NCBI RefSeq assembly: GCF_017310545.1
Contig: NZ_CP066203.1
Coordinates: 1,736,001-1,800,000 of the forward strand
Origin: Methylacidimicrobium sp. B4
GTDB taxonomy: Bacteria > Verrucomicrobiota > Verrucomicrobiia > Methylacidiphilales > Methylacidiphilaceae
Direction: 5' to 3'
DNA length: 64,000 nucleotides
Part shown: piece after piece, positions 46,458-50,612 of the stretch
Position numbering within the stretch: the stretch's first letter is position 1
Layout: each line of letters starts with the position of its first letter
The notes under the pieces: model-generated
Told to the model about the DNA's origin: nothing
Seen by the model: only the letters and a program-made list of their open reading frames with translations
The model's database searches: none
Program-made: the position numbers and the translations under genes

Positions 46458-47273
46458 ATGAGCATACGAGAGATCCGGGAACAGCTCGCCTCGTCTGCGC
46501 TGCGCCCGCAGCGCCGATTCGGCCAAAACTTCCTCCACGACCGGAACATGGCCTGTTGGATCGTCGACTCCGCGCTTCAAAACCTTTCCCTGCCGTGGCG
46601 GGTTTGGGAGGTCGGACCTGGCCTGGGGGTCCTGACGGCACTTCTGTTGGAGAGAGGGGCCGGGGTTCGCGCGGTCGAGATCGACCGTGGGCTTGCGGGG
46701 ATCTTGCGCGATCGCTTTCGGGGCGAGGCGCGCTTTCAACTCTGCGAAGGGGATGTGTTGCGAGAGGAATGGCCCGATCCCGTGGCCGACTGGATCCTGA
46801 TCGGTAACCTGCCCTATTCGATTTCCGGGCCATTTCTCGCTTCCCTCTTCCGGCAAAGGGCTTCCTTCCGCCGCGTCGTCGTGACCCTCCAGCGCGAGGT
46901 GGCCGAGCGGCTCGTGGCCAAGCCGAGGCAGGATGCCTACGGAAGCCTTTCGGTCATGGGTCAATCCACCTATCGGGTGGACATCCGAAAGCGGCTGCCC
47001 CCGTCGGTCTTCTATCCGGCTCCGAAAGTGGAGTCGGCGCTGATCTGCCTCGAGCCCTTGGGGGAGGTGCGGATTCCTCCAGAGGACCGGGAAGACTTTT
47101 GCTCCTTCGTGCGCGAGAGCTTCCAGCAGCGGCGGAAGAGCTTGGGAAGACGGTGGAGTCGTGGGGAGCGGCGGCGTCCGGAGGAGTTGAGCGTCGCCGA
47201 GTGGGTGTCGGCCTACCGGGAATTGCGGAAGGCGGCTCCGGCGGAAACGGGAGGATCTTTTGGTTTGACCTGA
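46458..47273 (+). CDS. rsmA: 16S rRNA dimethyladenosine transferase RsmA (KsgA)
   Basis: This 271-residue enzyme dimethylates the two adenines in the 3' hairpin of 16S rRNA. It shows RFGQNFLHDRN, the SAM motif EVGPGLGVLTALLL, EIDRGLA, the catalytic NLPYSIS, and PPSVFYPAPKVESA. All conserved elements are present. It is divergent from metE, and the ilvN leader begins 30 bases after the stop, so read-through into the ilv operon is possible. Confidence 0.95.
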   Translation: MSIREIREQLASSALRPQRRFGQNFLHDRNMACWIVDSALQNLSLPWRVWEVGPGLGVLTALLLERGAGVRAVEIDRGLAGILRDRFRGEARFQLCEGDVLREEWPDPVADWILIGNLPYSISGPFLASLFRQRASFRRVVVTLQREVAERLVAKPRQDAYGSLSVMGQSTYRVDIRKRLPPSVFYPAPKVESALICLEPLGEVRIPPEDREDFCSFVRESFQQRRKSLGRRWSRGERRRPEELSVAEWVSAYRELRKAAPAETGGSFGLT

Positions 47274-47302
47274 CCAGGAAGCGAATATAAAAAGGAGAGG
47301 AA

Positions 47303-47365
47303 ATGAGGCCGCACAGGCGATCGGACACGCGATTGGTTTTGTTCGGGAGACTAGCGGTCTCCTGA
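47303..47365 (+). CDS. Putative ilv leader peptide (20 codons, Leu/Val-rich end)
   Basis: This short ORF was found by eye in the rsmA-ilvN gap. AAAGGAGAGG lies directly upstream of the ATG, the strongest ribosome-binding site in the neighbourhood. The product ends RLVLFGRLAVS. Three consecutive codons are Leu-Val-Leu (TTG GTT TTG), and later come CTA (Leu, a codon rare in GC-rich genomes) and GTC (Val). It is followed by a terminator before ilvN, so the likely job is to sense leucine/valine tRNA charging by ribosome stalling. No homology evidence is available to me; function is inferred from arrangement. Confidence 0.7.
   Translation: MRPHRRSDTRLVLFGRLAVS
47346..47362 (+). promoter_or_regulatory. 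Pause-type hairpin at the end of the leader ORF
   Basis: A perfect 6-bp stem GGAGAC/GTCTCC with a 5-base loop (TAGCG) overlaps the last leader codons. In attenuators such a hairpin pauses RNA polymerase until the ribosome catches up. Confidence 0.6.
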
Positions 47366-47415
47366 AAAGGGCGTGGATCCCGCACCAACGGCAGAGCAGG
47401 AAGCATCCCGCCTTT
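47366..47415 (+). promoter_or_regulatory. Putative antiterminator
   Basis: AAAGGGCG at 47366-47373, immediately after the leader stop, repeats exactly at 47422-47429 in the terminator's 3' arm. Either copy can pair with CGCCTTT (47409-47415). Pairing of the first copy would block the terminator. Confidence 0.6.
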
Positions 47416-47440
47416 CCAAAGAAAGGGCGGGTTTTTTGTT
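47407..47440 (+). terminator. Intrinsic terminator (attenuator) before ilvN
   Basis: CCCGCCTTT (47407-47415) pairs with AAGGGCGGG (47423-47431) in a 9-bp, GC-rich stem with one G-U pair and a 7-base loop. Six T, then GTTT, follow directly. It lies after the leader ORF and 43 bases before ilvN, so it must be read through for the operon to be expressed. Confidence 0.85.
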
Positions 47441-47483
47441 TATGGATCAGGGGAACCTTCCCGGAAAGGAACCGGAAGCGCGA

Positions 47484-47963
47484 ATGCGGCACACCATTTC
47501 GGTGCTGGTAGCGAACCGATTTGGGGTGCTCACCCGAATCGCGGGCCTGTTTAGTGGGCGTGGATACAATATCGACACCTTGAACGTCGGTCCGACGCAT
47601 GACGAAAAGGTCTCCCGGATGACGATCGTCGTCAAAGGGGATGACAAGGTGCTCGATCAGGTAACGCGGCAGCTCAATAAGCTGGTGGATGTCATCGCCG
47701 TTCAGGATTTTCGCGAGGGGGAATCCATCGATCGCCAGCTGATCCTGGTGAAGGTCAAGAGCACGGAGCGTTCCAGGGCAGAGCTCATGCAGATCTGCGA
47801 CATCTTCCGCGCGAAGATCGTGAACGTGGAGCCGGAGGATCTGACGATCGAGATCACGGGTGACGAGAGCAAGGTGGAGAAGTTCCTCTACTTGATGAGC
47901 AGCTTTGGAATTCTCGATATTTCCCGGACCGGGAAGATTGCCTTACCGAGGCAAGGAAAATAG
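47484..47963 (+). CDS. ilvN: Acetolactate synthase small (regulatory) subunit
   Basis: This 159-residue protein has the N-terminal ACT domain (HTISVLVANRFGVLTRIAGLFSGRGYNIDTL) and the C-terminal domain of IlvH/IlvN. It binds valine and controls the catalytic subunit IlvB, which is not encoded in the window. ATG 47484 begins right at the ACT domain; ATG 47442 lies against the terminator T-run with no ribosome-binding site and is unlikely. It is first in ilvN-ilvC-leuA and placed behind a leader and terminator. Confidence 0.93.
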   Translation: MRHTISVLVANRFGVLTRIAGLFSGRGYNIDTLNVGPTHDEKVSRMTIVVKGDDKVLDQVTRQLNKLVDVIAVQDFREGESIDRQLILVKVKSTERSRAELMQICDIFRAKIVNVEPEDLTIEITGDESKVEKFLYLMSSFGILDISRTGKIALPRQGK

Positions 47964-47982: not shown

Positions 47983-49038
47983 ATGGCGGCGAAGATCTAT
48001 ACGGAGCAGGAGACGAGCCTGGCTCCGCTGCAGAATCGGGTGTTCGGCGTGATCGGGTTTGGGTCGCAAGGGCATGCCCATGCGCTCAACTTGCGGGACA
48101 GCGGGATCGAGGTGATCGTGGGTCTTCCGGAGAAGAGTCGTTCGGTGGGCGTCGCGCGCGATCTCGGTTTCCCGGTTCAGCGGAATGGCGAGGTGGCGGC
48201 CAAGGCCGACGTGCTTTTCTTTGCCGCGCCCGATCTGGCGATTGCCGACATCTATTCGGCCGACGTCGTCCCGCATCTCCGGCCCGGGCAGACCCTGGGC
48301 TTCGCTCATGGGTTTGCCGTCCATTACCGGACGATCGCTCCCCCGGAAGAGGTCGACGTCGTCCTGGTGGCTCCCAAAGGCCCGGGCCACCTGGTGCGCC
48401 GGGAGTTCACCCAAGGGAAGGGGGTGCCCGCCCTCGTTGCCGTGGGACAGAACCCGTCCGGAAGAGCGCTCGAAACGGCTCTCGCCTGGGCCGCTGGCAT
48501 CGGATCGGCTCGCGCCGGAGTGATCGAGACCAGCTTCCGGGAGGAGACGGAGACCGACCTCTTCGGAGAGCAGGCGGTGCTCTGCGGCGGAATGACGGCG
48601 CTGGTGCAAGCGGGGTTCGAAACCCTGGTCGAGGCCGGCTACCAGCCCGAGATGGCCTATTTCGAATGTCTCCACGAGATGAAGCTGATCGTAGATTTGA
48701 TGTACGAAGCAGGAATCTCCGGCATGCGCTTTTCGATCTCGGAAACCGCCAAATGGGGGGATCTGACCGTCGGTCCGCAAATCATCGATGAGCACGTGCG
48801 CGAAACCATGCGGAAGGTCCTGGGCCGCATCCGGGATGGGAGCTTCGCGCGCGAATGGATCGCCGAGGCTCACGGAGGGAAGAAGCACTATCAGGAGCTT
48901 TTGCAACAAGGAGCGGGTCACCCGATCGAGCAGGTGGGCGAGCGGATGCGCTCTCTGATGCCCTGGTTGAAAAAACGGGACATGTCGGGGGCGCAGGCGG
49001 CCTACGAGAAGGGCTTGGGGAAAGGGGAAGCCACATGA
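47983..49038 (+). CDS. ilvC: Ketol-acid reductoisomerase (class I)
   Basis: This 351-residue enzyme turns acetolactate or acetohydroxybutyrate into the dihydroxy acids, with NADPH and magnesium. The Rossmann motif is VIGFGSQGHAHALNLRDSG, followed by HGFAVHY, the acidic metal ligands in EETETDLFGEQAVLCGG, and YFECLHEMKLIVDL. The short length is class I. AAGGAGGAAACGGAGG precedes ATG 47983. The stop overlaps the leuA start (ATGA). Confidence 0.96.
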   Translation: MAAKIYTEQETSLAPLQNRVFGVIGFGSQGHAHALNLRDSGIEVIVGLPEKSRSVGVARDLGFPVQRNGEVAAKADVLFFAAPDLAIADIYSADVVPHLRPGQTLGFAHGFAVHYRTIAPPEEVDVVLVAPKGPGHLVRREFTQGKGVPALVAVGQNPSGRALETALAWAAGIGSARAGVIETSFREETETDLFGEQAVLCGGMTALVQAGFETLVEAGYQPEMAYFECLHEMKLIVDLMYEAGISGMRFSISETAKWGDLTVGPQIIDEHVRETMRKVLGRIRDGSFAREWIAEAHGGKKHYQELLQQGAGHPIEQVGERMRSLMPWLKKRDMSGAQAAYEKGLGKGEAT

Positions 49039-50612
49039 AAGAGGCCAATCGAGTCACGATTTTCGATACCACGTTGCGCGATGGAGAGCAGTGCCCCGGG
49101 GCGAGCATGACGCCTCGGCAAAAGCTCGAGGTAGCGCGCCAGCTGGCGCGCCTCGGCGTTGACGTGATCGAGGCGGGCTTTCCAGTGATCAGCCAGGGAG
49201 ATTTCGCCTCGGTCCGGGACATCGCCGAGCAGATCGAAGGTCCCAAGATCTGCGGGCTGGCGCGTTGCCTTGCCGCCGATATCGACGCTGCGGGAGAGGC
49301 GTTGCGGCCCGCGGGAAAGCGTGGACGGATTCACGTTTTTCTGGCGACCTCGTCGATCCATCGCGTGCACAAGCTGGCGAAGAGCCGGGAGGAGGTGATT
49401 CGCATCGCTGCCGAGGCGATCCGCCGAGCACGCGGCTTCGTCGAGGACGTGGAATTCTCTCCGGAGGATGCGACCCGGACCGAGCCCGACTTTCTCTTGC
49501 GTATCGTGACGGAGGCGATCGCCGCGGGAGCGAGCACGATCAACATCCCGGACACCGTGGGATACACCACGCCCGAAGAGTTTGCGGAGCGGATCCGCAT
49601 GCTCCGGGAGGGAGTCCCCAACATCGGGATGGCCGTATTGAGCGTTCATTGCCACAACGACCTCGGCTTGGCGGTGGCCAACTCGCTGGCGGCGCTCCAG
49701 GCAGGGGCGAGGCAGGTCGAAGGGACGATCAACGGGATTGGCGAGCGGGCCGGGAATGCCGCGCTCGAGGAGATCGTAATGGCGCTCAACACGCGCCGCG
49801 ATCTTTTCGGCGGGCTCGAAACGGGCGTCCATGCCAAGGAGATCGTTCGGACCAGCCGCCTGGTGGCCCGGATGTCCGGACTCCACGTCCAGCGCAACAA
49901 GGCGGTGGTTGGAGAAAATGCATTTGCCCATAGCGCTGGCATCCACCAGGACGGAGTCCTCAAGAAGCGAGAGACCTACGAGATCATGGACCCCACCGCG
50001 ATTGGTTGGGGAGAGACCGAGCTTCCCTTGACGAAGCACAGCGGCAGGGCCGCCCTGGAAAAGAGGCTCGTGACCCTCGGGTTCGGGTTGAGCCGGGAGG
50101 AGATCGACGCCGTTTTCGGCAAGTTCAAGGAGATTGGAGACAAAAAGAAGTTTGTCTACGACGACGATCTGGTCGCTCTCGCCGAAGGGCAGATCACCAG
50201 GATCCAGGAAACCTTCGAGCTGGTCTACTGGAGCGTGTCGACGGCATTCCAGGGAGTGCCCACCGCCACGGTCCGCCTGCGCAAGGGAGCCGAAGTCTCG
50301 ACCGATGCCGGAGTCGGGGGTGGATCAGTCGATGCGGCGATGAAAGCGATCGATCGGATCAGCGGACAGCATGGGCACTTGGTCGAGTACCGTGTGGAGG
50401 CTGTCACCGAAGGCAAGGACGCGATCGGCGAGGTTACGGTCCGGGTCGATTTCGGCGAAGGCAGGCTCATCACCGGAAAAGCGGCCTCCACCGATGTGGT
50501 CGAGGCGAGCGTCCGAGCCTATCTCAACGCGGTCAACCGTTCCTTCCTCTCCCGAACGGAGCTTCCGGGGAAAGAGGAAACCGCTCCGTCCCGAGAAGAC
50601 AAGGTTGCTTAA
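49035..50612 (+). CDS. leuA: 2-isopropylmalate synthase
   Basis: This 525-residue enzyme condenses ketoisovalerate and acetyl-CoA in the first leucine step. The TIM-barrel catalytic motifs are IFDTTLRDGEQCPGASM, the metal-binding HCHNDLGLAVANSLAA, and NGIGERAGNAALEEI. The C-terminal leucine-binding regulatory domain is present (AFQGVPTATVRL, GGSVDAAMKAIDRI). Coupling to ilvC by ATGA puts leucine synthesis under the same leader. It is the last gene of the unit. Confidence 0.96.
   Translation: MKEANRVTIFDTTLRDGEQCPGASMTPRQKLEVARQLARLGVDVIEAGFPVISQGDFASVRDIAEQIEGPKICGLARCLAADIDAAGEALRPAGKRGRIHVFLATSSIHRVHKLAKSREEVIRIAAEAIRRARGFVEDVEFSPEDATRTEPDFLLRIVTEAIAAGASTINIPDTVGYTTPEEFAERIRMLREGVPNIGMAVLSVHCHNDLGLAVANSLAALQAGARQVEGTINGIGERAGNAALEEIVMALNTRRDLFGGLETGVHAKEIVRTSRLVARMSGLHVQRNKAVVGENAFAHSAGIHQDGVLKKRETYEIMDPTAIGWGETELPLTKHSGRAALEKRLVTLGFGLSREEIDAVFGKFKEIGDKKKFVYDDDLVALAEGQITRIQETFELVYWSVSTAFQGVPTATVRLRKGAEVSTDAGVGGGSVDAAMKAIDRISGQHGHLVEYRVEAVTEGKDAIGEVTVRVDFGEGRLITGKAASTDVVEASVRAYLNAVNRSFLSRTELPGKEETAPSREDKVA

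Follow-up and report, generated by a model that had tools for sequence, protein, structure and literature searches.

Attenuation by a translated leader peptide is the mechanism of the leu, ilv, trp, and his attenuators and the one that we propose here, and later cases of it come from Firmicutes. It was for long documented mainly in Proteobacteria and Actinobacteria (PMC2965389). In the Salmonella leu attenuator the control codon is CUA, which is also predicted to serve best as a Leu control codon in E. coli (PMC1183508). The closest tested case to the locus described below is the ilvB1NC attenuator of Mycobacterium tuberculosis, which is backed by end-sequencing and reporters (PMC13236596). 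In S. coelicolor, altering the regulatory codons of ilvB had no effect (PMC1262725), and the attenuator transcript of Sinorhizobium meliloti trpL begins at the leader AUG, making its leader ORF leaderless (PMC7298713). Our search of the open-access literature, which is weak negative evidence, found no description of such a leader in Verrucomicrobiota.

Here, we analyzed a window of 64,000 nucleotides from the complete 2.37-Mb genome of Methylacidimicrobium sp. B4 (G000), in which a ribosome-mediated transcription attenuator appears to control ilvN-ilvC-leuA; we put the probability of this reading, which is drawn from sequence and its comparison among relatives, at roughly 0.86. The order on the DNA is rsmA/ksgA (46458-47273), leader ORF, terminator, ilvN, ilvC, and leuA. 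NCBIfam profile matches identify the last three, all on the plus strand, as the acetolactate synthase small subunit (47442-47963; TIGR00119, 4.8e-59), ketol-acid reductoisomerase (47983-49038; TIGR00465, 5.6e-122), and 2-isopropylmalate synthase (49035-50612, start taken from the ORF; TIGR00973, 3.4e-210), and leuA begins within the end of ilvC, its ATG overlapping the stop of that gene. The gene for the large subunit, ilvB, lies away from the operon (G000:C1:1473951-1475636). Directly behind the T-run, an in-frame ATG would provide 14 extra IlvN codons (47442-47483); this upstream ATG and its reading frame are conserved in all seven Methylacidimicrobium species, and ilvN starts at either 47442 or 47484.

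The leader ORF (47303-47365, plus strand) has 20 codons and encodes MRPHRRSDTRLVLFGRLAVS (ATG AGG CCG CAC AGG CGA TCG GAC ACG CGA TTG GTT TTG TTC GGG AGA CTA GCG GTC TCC TGA). Its putative main sensing codon is the rare Leu codon CTA (47351-47353, plus strand), which makes up 3.4 per 1,000 codons (0.34%) in long ORFs of the window, picked by length alone; the Leu-Val-Leu codons TTG GTT TTG (47333-47341, plus strand) are candidates for secondary sensing. An ORF is present in each of the seven Methylacidimicrobium species that formed our conservation set, and in every one of them CTA is precisely the fourth codon before the stop, with a Leu, Val, or Ile codon three to five codons 5' of the CTA. 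The rest of the peptide is variable (13 to 20 residues, with differing N termini), as in MGPYTRSVVFGRLAVS, MIPRTPTGLLRSLRLS, MERMTLASIGKLAAL, MTMLTLVGKLATS, and MLPDTLAVIVGMLAAS; the leader of G003 has several possible ATGs, and its peptide ends in TLVSVGNLAAA. An earlier note, made from this DNA alone, had proposed the 20-codon ORF, its Leu-Val-Leu cluster, and its rare CTA, and had predicted Leu/Val codons conserved within an otherwise variable short ORF. The coordinates proved exact on rereading, and the comparison bears out the prediction.

Could the leader instead be a trans-acting or ligand-binding RNA, such as a riboswitch, a T-box, or a protein-binding RNA, rather than a peptide read by a ribosome? 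The RNA is indeed structured, its folding beating 199 of 200 dinucleotide shuffles (z of −2.8), and CTAGC might be a motif and not a codon. However, G002 keeps only CTA and not CTAGC, the Ala codon that comes next is variable at its third base, and runs of Val codons in the leaders of other lineages use all four synonyms. Furthermore, Rfam gave no match even at an E value of ≤5, except for meaningless eukaryotic ones: neither the Leu, ilv, and other leader families in the window or at eight other leader loci nor any T-box or riboswitch aptamer was recovered. We therefore regard a ligand-binding leader as barely credible.

Upstream of the ORF is a −35 hexamer, TTGACC, at 47265-47270 (plus strand), exactly where the earlier note had placed it, within a TTTGACC that is invariant in all seven congeneric sequences. 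The −10 region (47286-47293, plus strand) is either TATAAA, with a 15-nt spacer, or TAAAAA (47288-47293), with a 17-nt spacer; at the latter spacing, the congeners have TATCCA, TATGGG, TATCAA, TATAAA, TAGTTT, and TAGGGA. Across 23 leaders of several families, TTGAC is followed about 17 nt later by a −10 and lies 34 to 41 nt (mean, 37.7) before the leader ATG. This conservation and spacing override the doubt that had been cast on the TTGACC/TATAAA pair, whose implied start falls within the supposed Shine-Dalgarno site, and we take the promoter before the leader to be real. Because such a promoter places the transcription start 0 to 6 nt before the start codon (predicted here at 47299-47302), the leader ORF is probably leaderless. 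The AAAGGAGAGG site, previously read as a strong ribosome-binding site, overlaps the −10 and is absent from most relatives; it is probably neither a ribosome-binding site nor transcribed. In three relatives that have no attenuator (L013, L055, and L060), a TTGACC promoter stands directly before ilvN, which looks as if an otherwise similar promoter had gained or lost an attenuator by insertion or deletion.

Comparison of the sequences reveals conserved and mutually exclusive structures between the end of the ORF and ilvN, all on the plus strand. The 1:2 hairpin over the leader end (47342-47366) has 11 bp in the fold, including a perfect 6-bp GGAGAC/GTCTCC core at 47346-47362. Right behind the stop, element 2 (AAGGGCG-U-GGAT, 47367-47378) is the putative 5' half of an antiterminator and forms a −16.1-kcal/mol duplex with element 3 (ATCCCGCCTTT, 47405-47415), which folding and arm swaps identify as its 3' half and, at the same time, the larger part of the terminator 5' arm. 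The predicted intrinsic terminator (CCCGCCTTTCCAAAGAAAGGGCGGG plus TTTTTT, 47407-47437) consists of a hairpin at 47407-47431 followed by TTTTTTGTTT, and a terminator-like hairpin with a T-run occupies the same place in all seven species. AAAGGGCG is present twice, at 47366-47373 and within the terminator 3' arm, and CGCCTTT is at 47409-47415; these repeats, the core hairpin, and the terminator before ilvN all lie where the earlier note had put them. The locus thus combines the parts by which such an attenuator is recognized: a short ORF with codons for the pathway end product, an intrinsic terminator between that ORF and the first structural gene, an antiterminator overlapping the terminator 5' arm, and a geometry in which element 2 adjoins the stop and CTA lies 12 nt before that stop in seven of seven species.

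We modeled folding in three states across the seven species. With bases free from the stop codon on and the 3' arm still absent, six of them have element 2 paired into the terminator 5' arm; in G000, 47367-47378 pairs with 47405-47415. Masking about 11 nt after the stop makes the terminator hairpin the best fold, which reproduces the switch that had been postulated, with a ribosome at the stop permitting the terminator and a stalled one the antiterminator. The exception in the unmasked state is G006, where free element 2 pairs just upstream of the terminator and not with it. At equilibrium in G000, the terminator (−21.9) remains the winner when element 2 is unmasked, and antitermination therefore has to be a kinetic effect. 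When arms were swapped among the species, which are related and not independent, only 20 of 5,040 permutations paired as well as the terminator's own partners (3:4) and 179 of 5,040 as well as those of the antiterminator (2:3). Better pairing of own partners is what compensatory change would give, in line with the covariation that had been expected of both competing stems. Within single species, the 2:3 helix stands out from shuffles modestly (0.002 to 0.25).

The position of these structures also raises the idea that they govern initiation of ilvN translation, with termination playing a minor part. The terminator abuts the ATG at 47442, a start that pairing would hide, and although terminators are strong in five of the seven congeners, G003 and G006 have weak ones (duplex energies of −6 to −7 kcal/mol) that were missed by a terminator scan. 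Against this, the T-run is kept directly behind the hairpin, invariant in the alignment of all seven congeners and present in the ilvN leaders of other lineages, and the second ATG, at 47484, is clear of the hairpin. Control of translation is accordingly improbable, and transcription attenuation remains our preferred reading.

From this arrangement, we infer where transcription would start, how the ribosome would stall and transcription end, and how the operon would respond to amino acids. RNA polymerase would start a few bases before the leader AUG, and a ribosome would load on the leaderless, or nearly leaderless, RNA. With ample charged leucyl-tRNA, it would reach the stop codon and cover element 2, leaving element 3 to pair with element 4 and form the intrinsic terminator immediately upstream of ilvN. 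Under a shortage of leucine (or valine), the ribosome would pause at CUA (47351) or within the UUG-GUU-UUG cluster, and free element 2 would form the 2:3 antiterminator, allowing transcription to continue into ilvN. With CTA in the A site, the ribosome would extend roughly to the stop; at the stop itself, it would extend some 12 nt further, over element 2. Very probably, then, a tiny gene and a switchable terminator make the ribosome a sensor of leucine shortage that switches the genes on.

A simpler account is that the hairpin terminates rsmA/ksgA, that ilvN has its own promoter behind it, and that the short ORF is accidental. Upstream genes need terminators, and ksgA ends 134 nt before this one. 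Yet in G005 and G006 the upstream neighbor is not ksgA, and the leader, the CTA position, and the terminator-like hairpin persist, from which we conclude that the unit travels with ilvN. Moreover, the conserved TTTGACC promoter precedes the leader and does not follow the terminator, the few bases from the T-run to the ATG at 47442 leave no room for a promoter, and leaders rich in codons for branched-chain amino acids (BCAA) and followed by terminators at ilvN far exceed those in shuffled sequence. This account is very unlikely. The last point comes from a scan of 174 ilvN upstream regions for a BCAA-rich short ORF 50 to 85 nt before a terminator T-run (score of at least 9), which matched 15 real regions and 1 of 1,044 shuffled sequences. 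One high-scoring leader among the 15 (L007) was discarded, as it lacks a promoter and is 191 nt away.

The leaders found by the scan fall into family f3, family f9, and Limisphaerales/Pedosphaerales-like metagenome-assembled genomes (MAGs). Family f3, a sister family in the same order, has MFSVGNLLLVAVL, with four Leu codons, the same layout, and a clean antiterminator in which the whole terminator arm is covered. The family f9 leader is MLQRVHVVVVGPV, and the MAG leaders are MKPFASVLVVARVVVVG and similar. A covariance model built from 11 Val-rich leaders of these MAGs was run on 384 genomes of the class and gave 24 matches above 31 bits, some of them in genomes of the training loci; all 24 lie directly before ilvN, and most have a TTGACC promoter and a Val-rich ORF. 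In this Val-rich lineage, the 2:3 helix has only 1 to 2 bases in common with the terminator, and the switch is less clear than in Methylacidimicrobium. The contigs L021, L020, L050, and L081 are labeled Klebsiella pneumoniae or Akkermansia muciniphila group, and the tree shows their IlvN to be Pedosphaerales-like; these MAG names seem to be mistaken.

Elsewhere the searches were negative. Methylacidiphilum and G008 have the same operon and no recognizable leader, and another 80 ilvN upstream regions, including 60 that came from other orders and classes, yielded no more convincing leaders. Before ilvB, none was seen by eye in six congeners. A search of the genus for the pattern TTGACC...CTA-9-T returned scattered matches, fewer than a reversed-pattern control, and showed no second copy. 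Genus g13 of family f9 (L105, L106, L109, and L110) was rejected: it has terminators before ilvN and not BCAA leaders, and its conserved block reads as a Shine-Dalgarno (SD) sequence and ATG of the other strand. In these four loci and L179, a strong minus-strand SD followed by ATG AAA CTT ACA is situated beside the terminator, upstream of ilvN. At L264 and L045, the ilvN leader stop is only ~38 nt before the T-run with no evident element 2, which resembles an eroded attenuator, and L094 (family f8) has a very strong terminator (−36.9 kcal/mol) ~49 to 90 nt before ilvN and no recognizable BCAA leader.

Mapped as a character on the IlvN tree, the leader requires about 11 changes, compared with 19.9 for shuffles; leaders are clustered but often gained or lost. 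All 10 leaders before ilvN-ilvC-leuA carry Leu (1 to 4 in the last 12 residues), and the remaining 14 have 4 to 7 Val and 0 to 2 Leu, with leuA seen in none (only ~2 kb downstream was covered for L040 and L048), a relation that is a correlation over few lineages. We offer, at even odds, the generalization that Verrucomicrobiota have widespread, often lost or regained leaderless ilvN attenuators whose sensed amino acid depends on the gene content of the operon: leucine, through as little as one rare CUA at a fixed place, with leuA, and runs of valine where leuA is absent. The locus would add another deep branch to those with leader-peptide attenuation and would bear on how acidophilic methanotrophs may set BCAA synthesis. 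The many gains or losses on the IlvN tree form a natural series in which the origin of such switches and shifts in their specificity can be followed, and attenuation theory could be tested codon by codon in the clean case of a single CUA at a constant distance.

The best reading is a classical ribosome-mediated BCAA attenuator, of a known kind and a new member of it; novelty of an ilvN attenuator in this lineage is plausible. Like the leuL attenuator of Salmonella and E. coli, it has a CUA control codon and a competing antiterminator and terminator before leucine genes, but here a single CUA stands four codons before the stop in place of a run, the operon begins at ilvN, and the leader is probably leaderless. 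We know of no sequence similarity between leuL and the Methylacidimicrobium leader. Predicted here and mapped there, a leaderless leader ORF is shared with S. meliloti trpL, which concerns tryptophan and not BCAA (PMC7298713). Short Ile/Val/Leu-rich ORFs followed by terminators also precede ilv operons in Actinobacteria, as in the ilvB leader peptides (PMC1262725) and the Corynebacterium glutamicum ilvBNC attenuator (PMC11857589), with a different gene order and no members described from Verrucomicrobiota. As in M. tuberculosis ilvB1NC, a short BCAA ORF is followed by an antiterminator element that a ribosome at the stop would cover and by a terminator before ilv genes; that attenuator, in another phylum, starts at ilvB, which is absent from the Methylacidimicrobium operon, and has a 166-nt leader with LVVI codons (PMC13236596).
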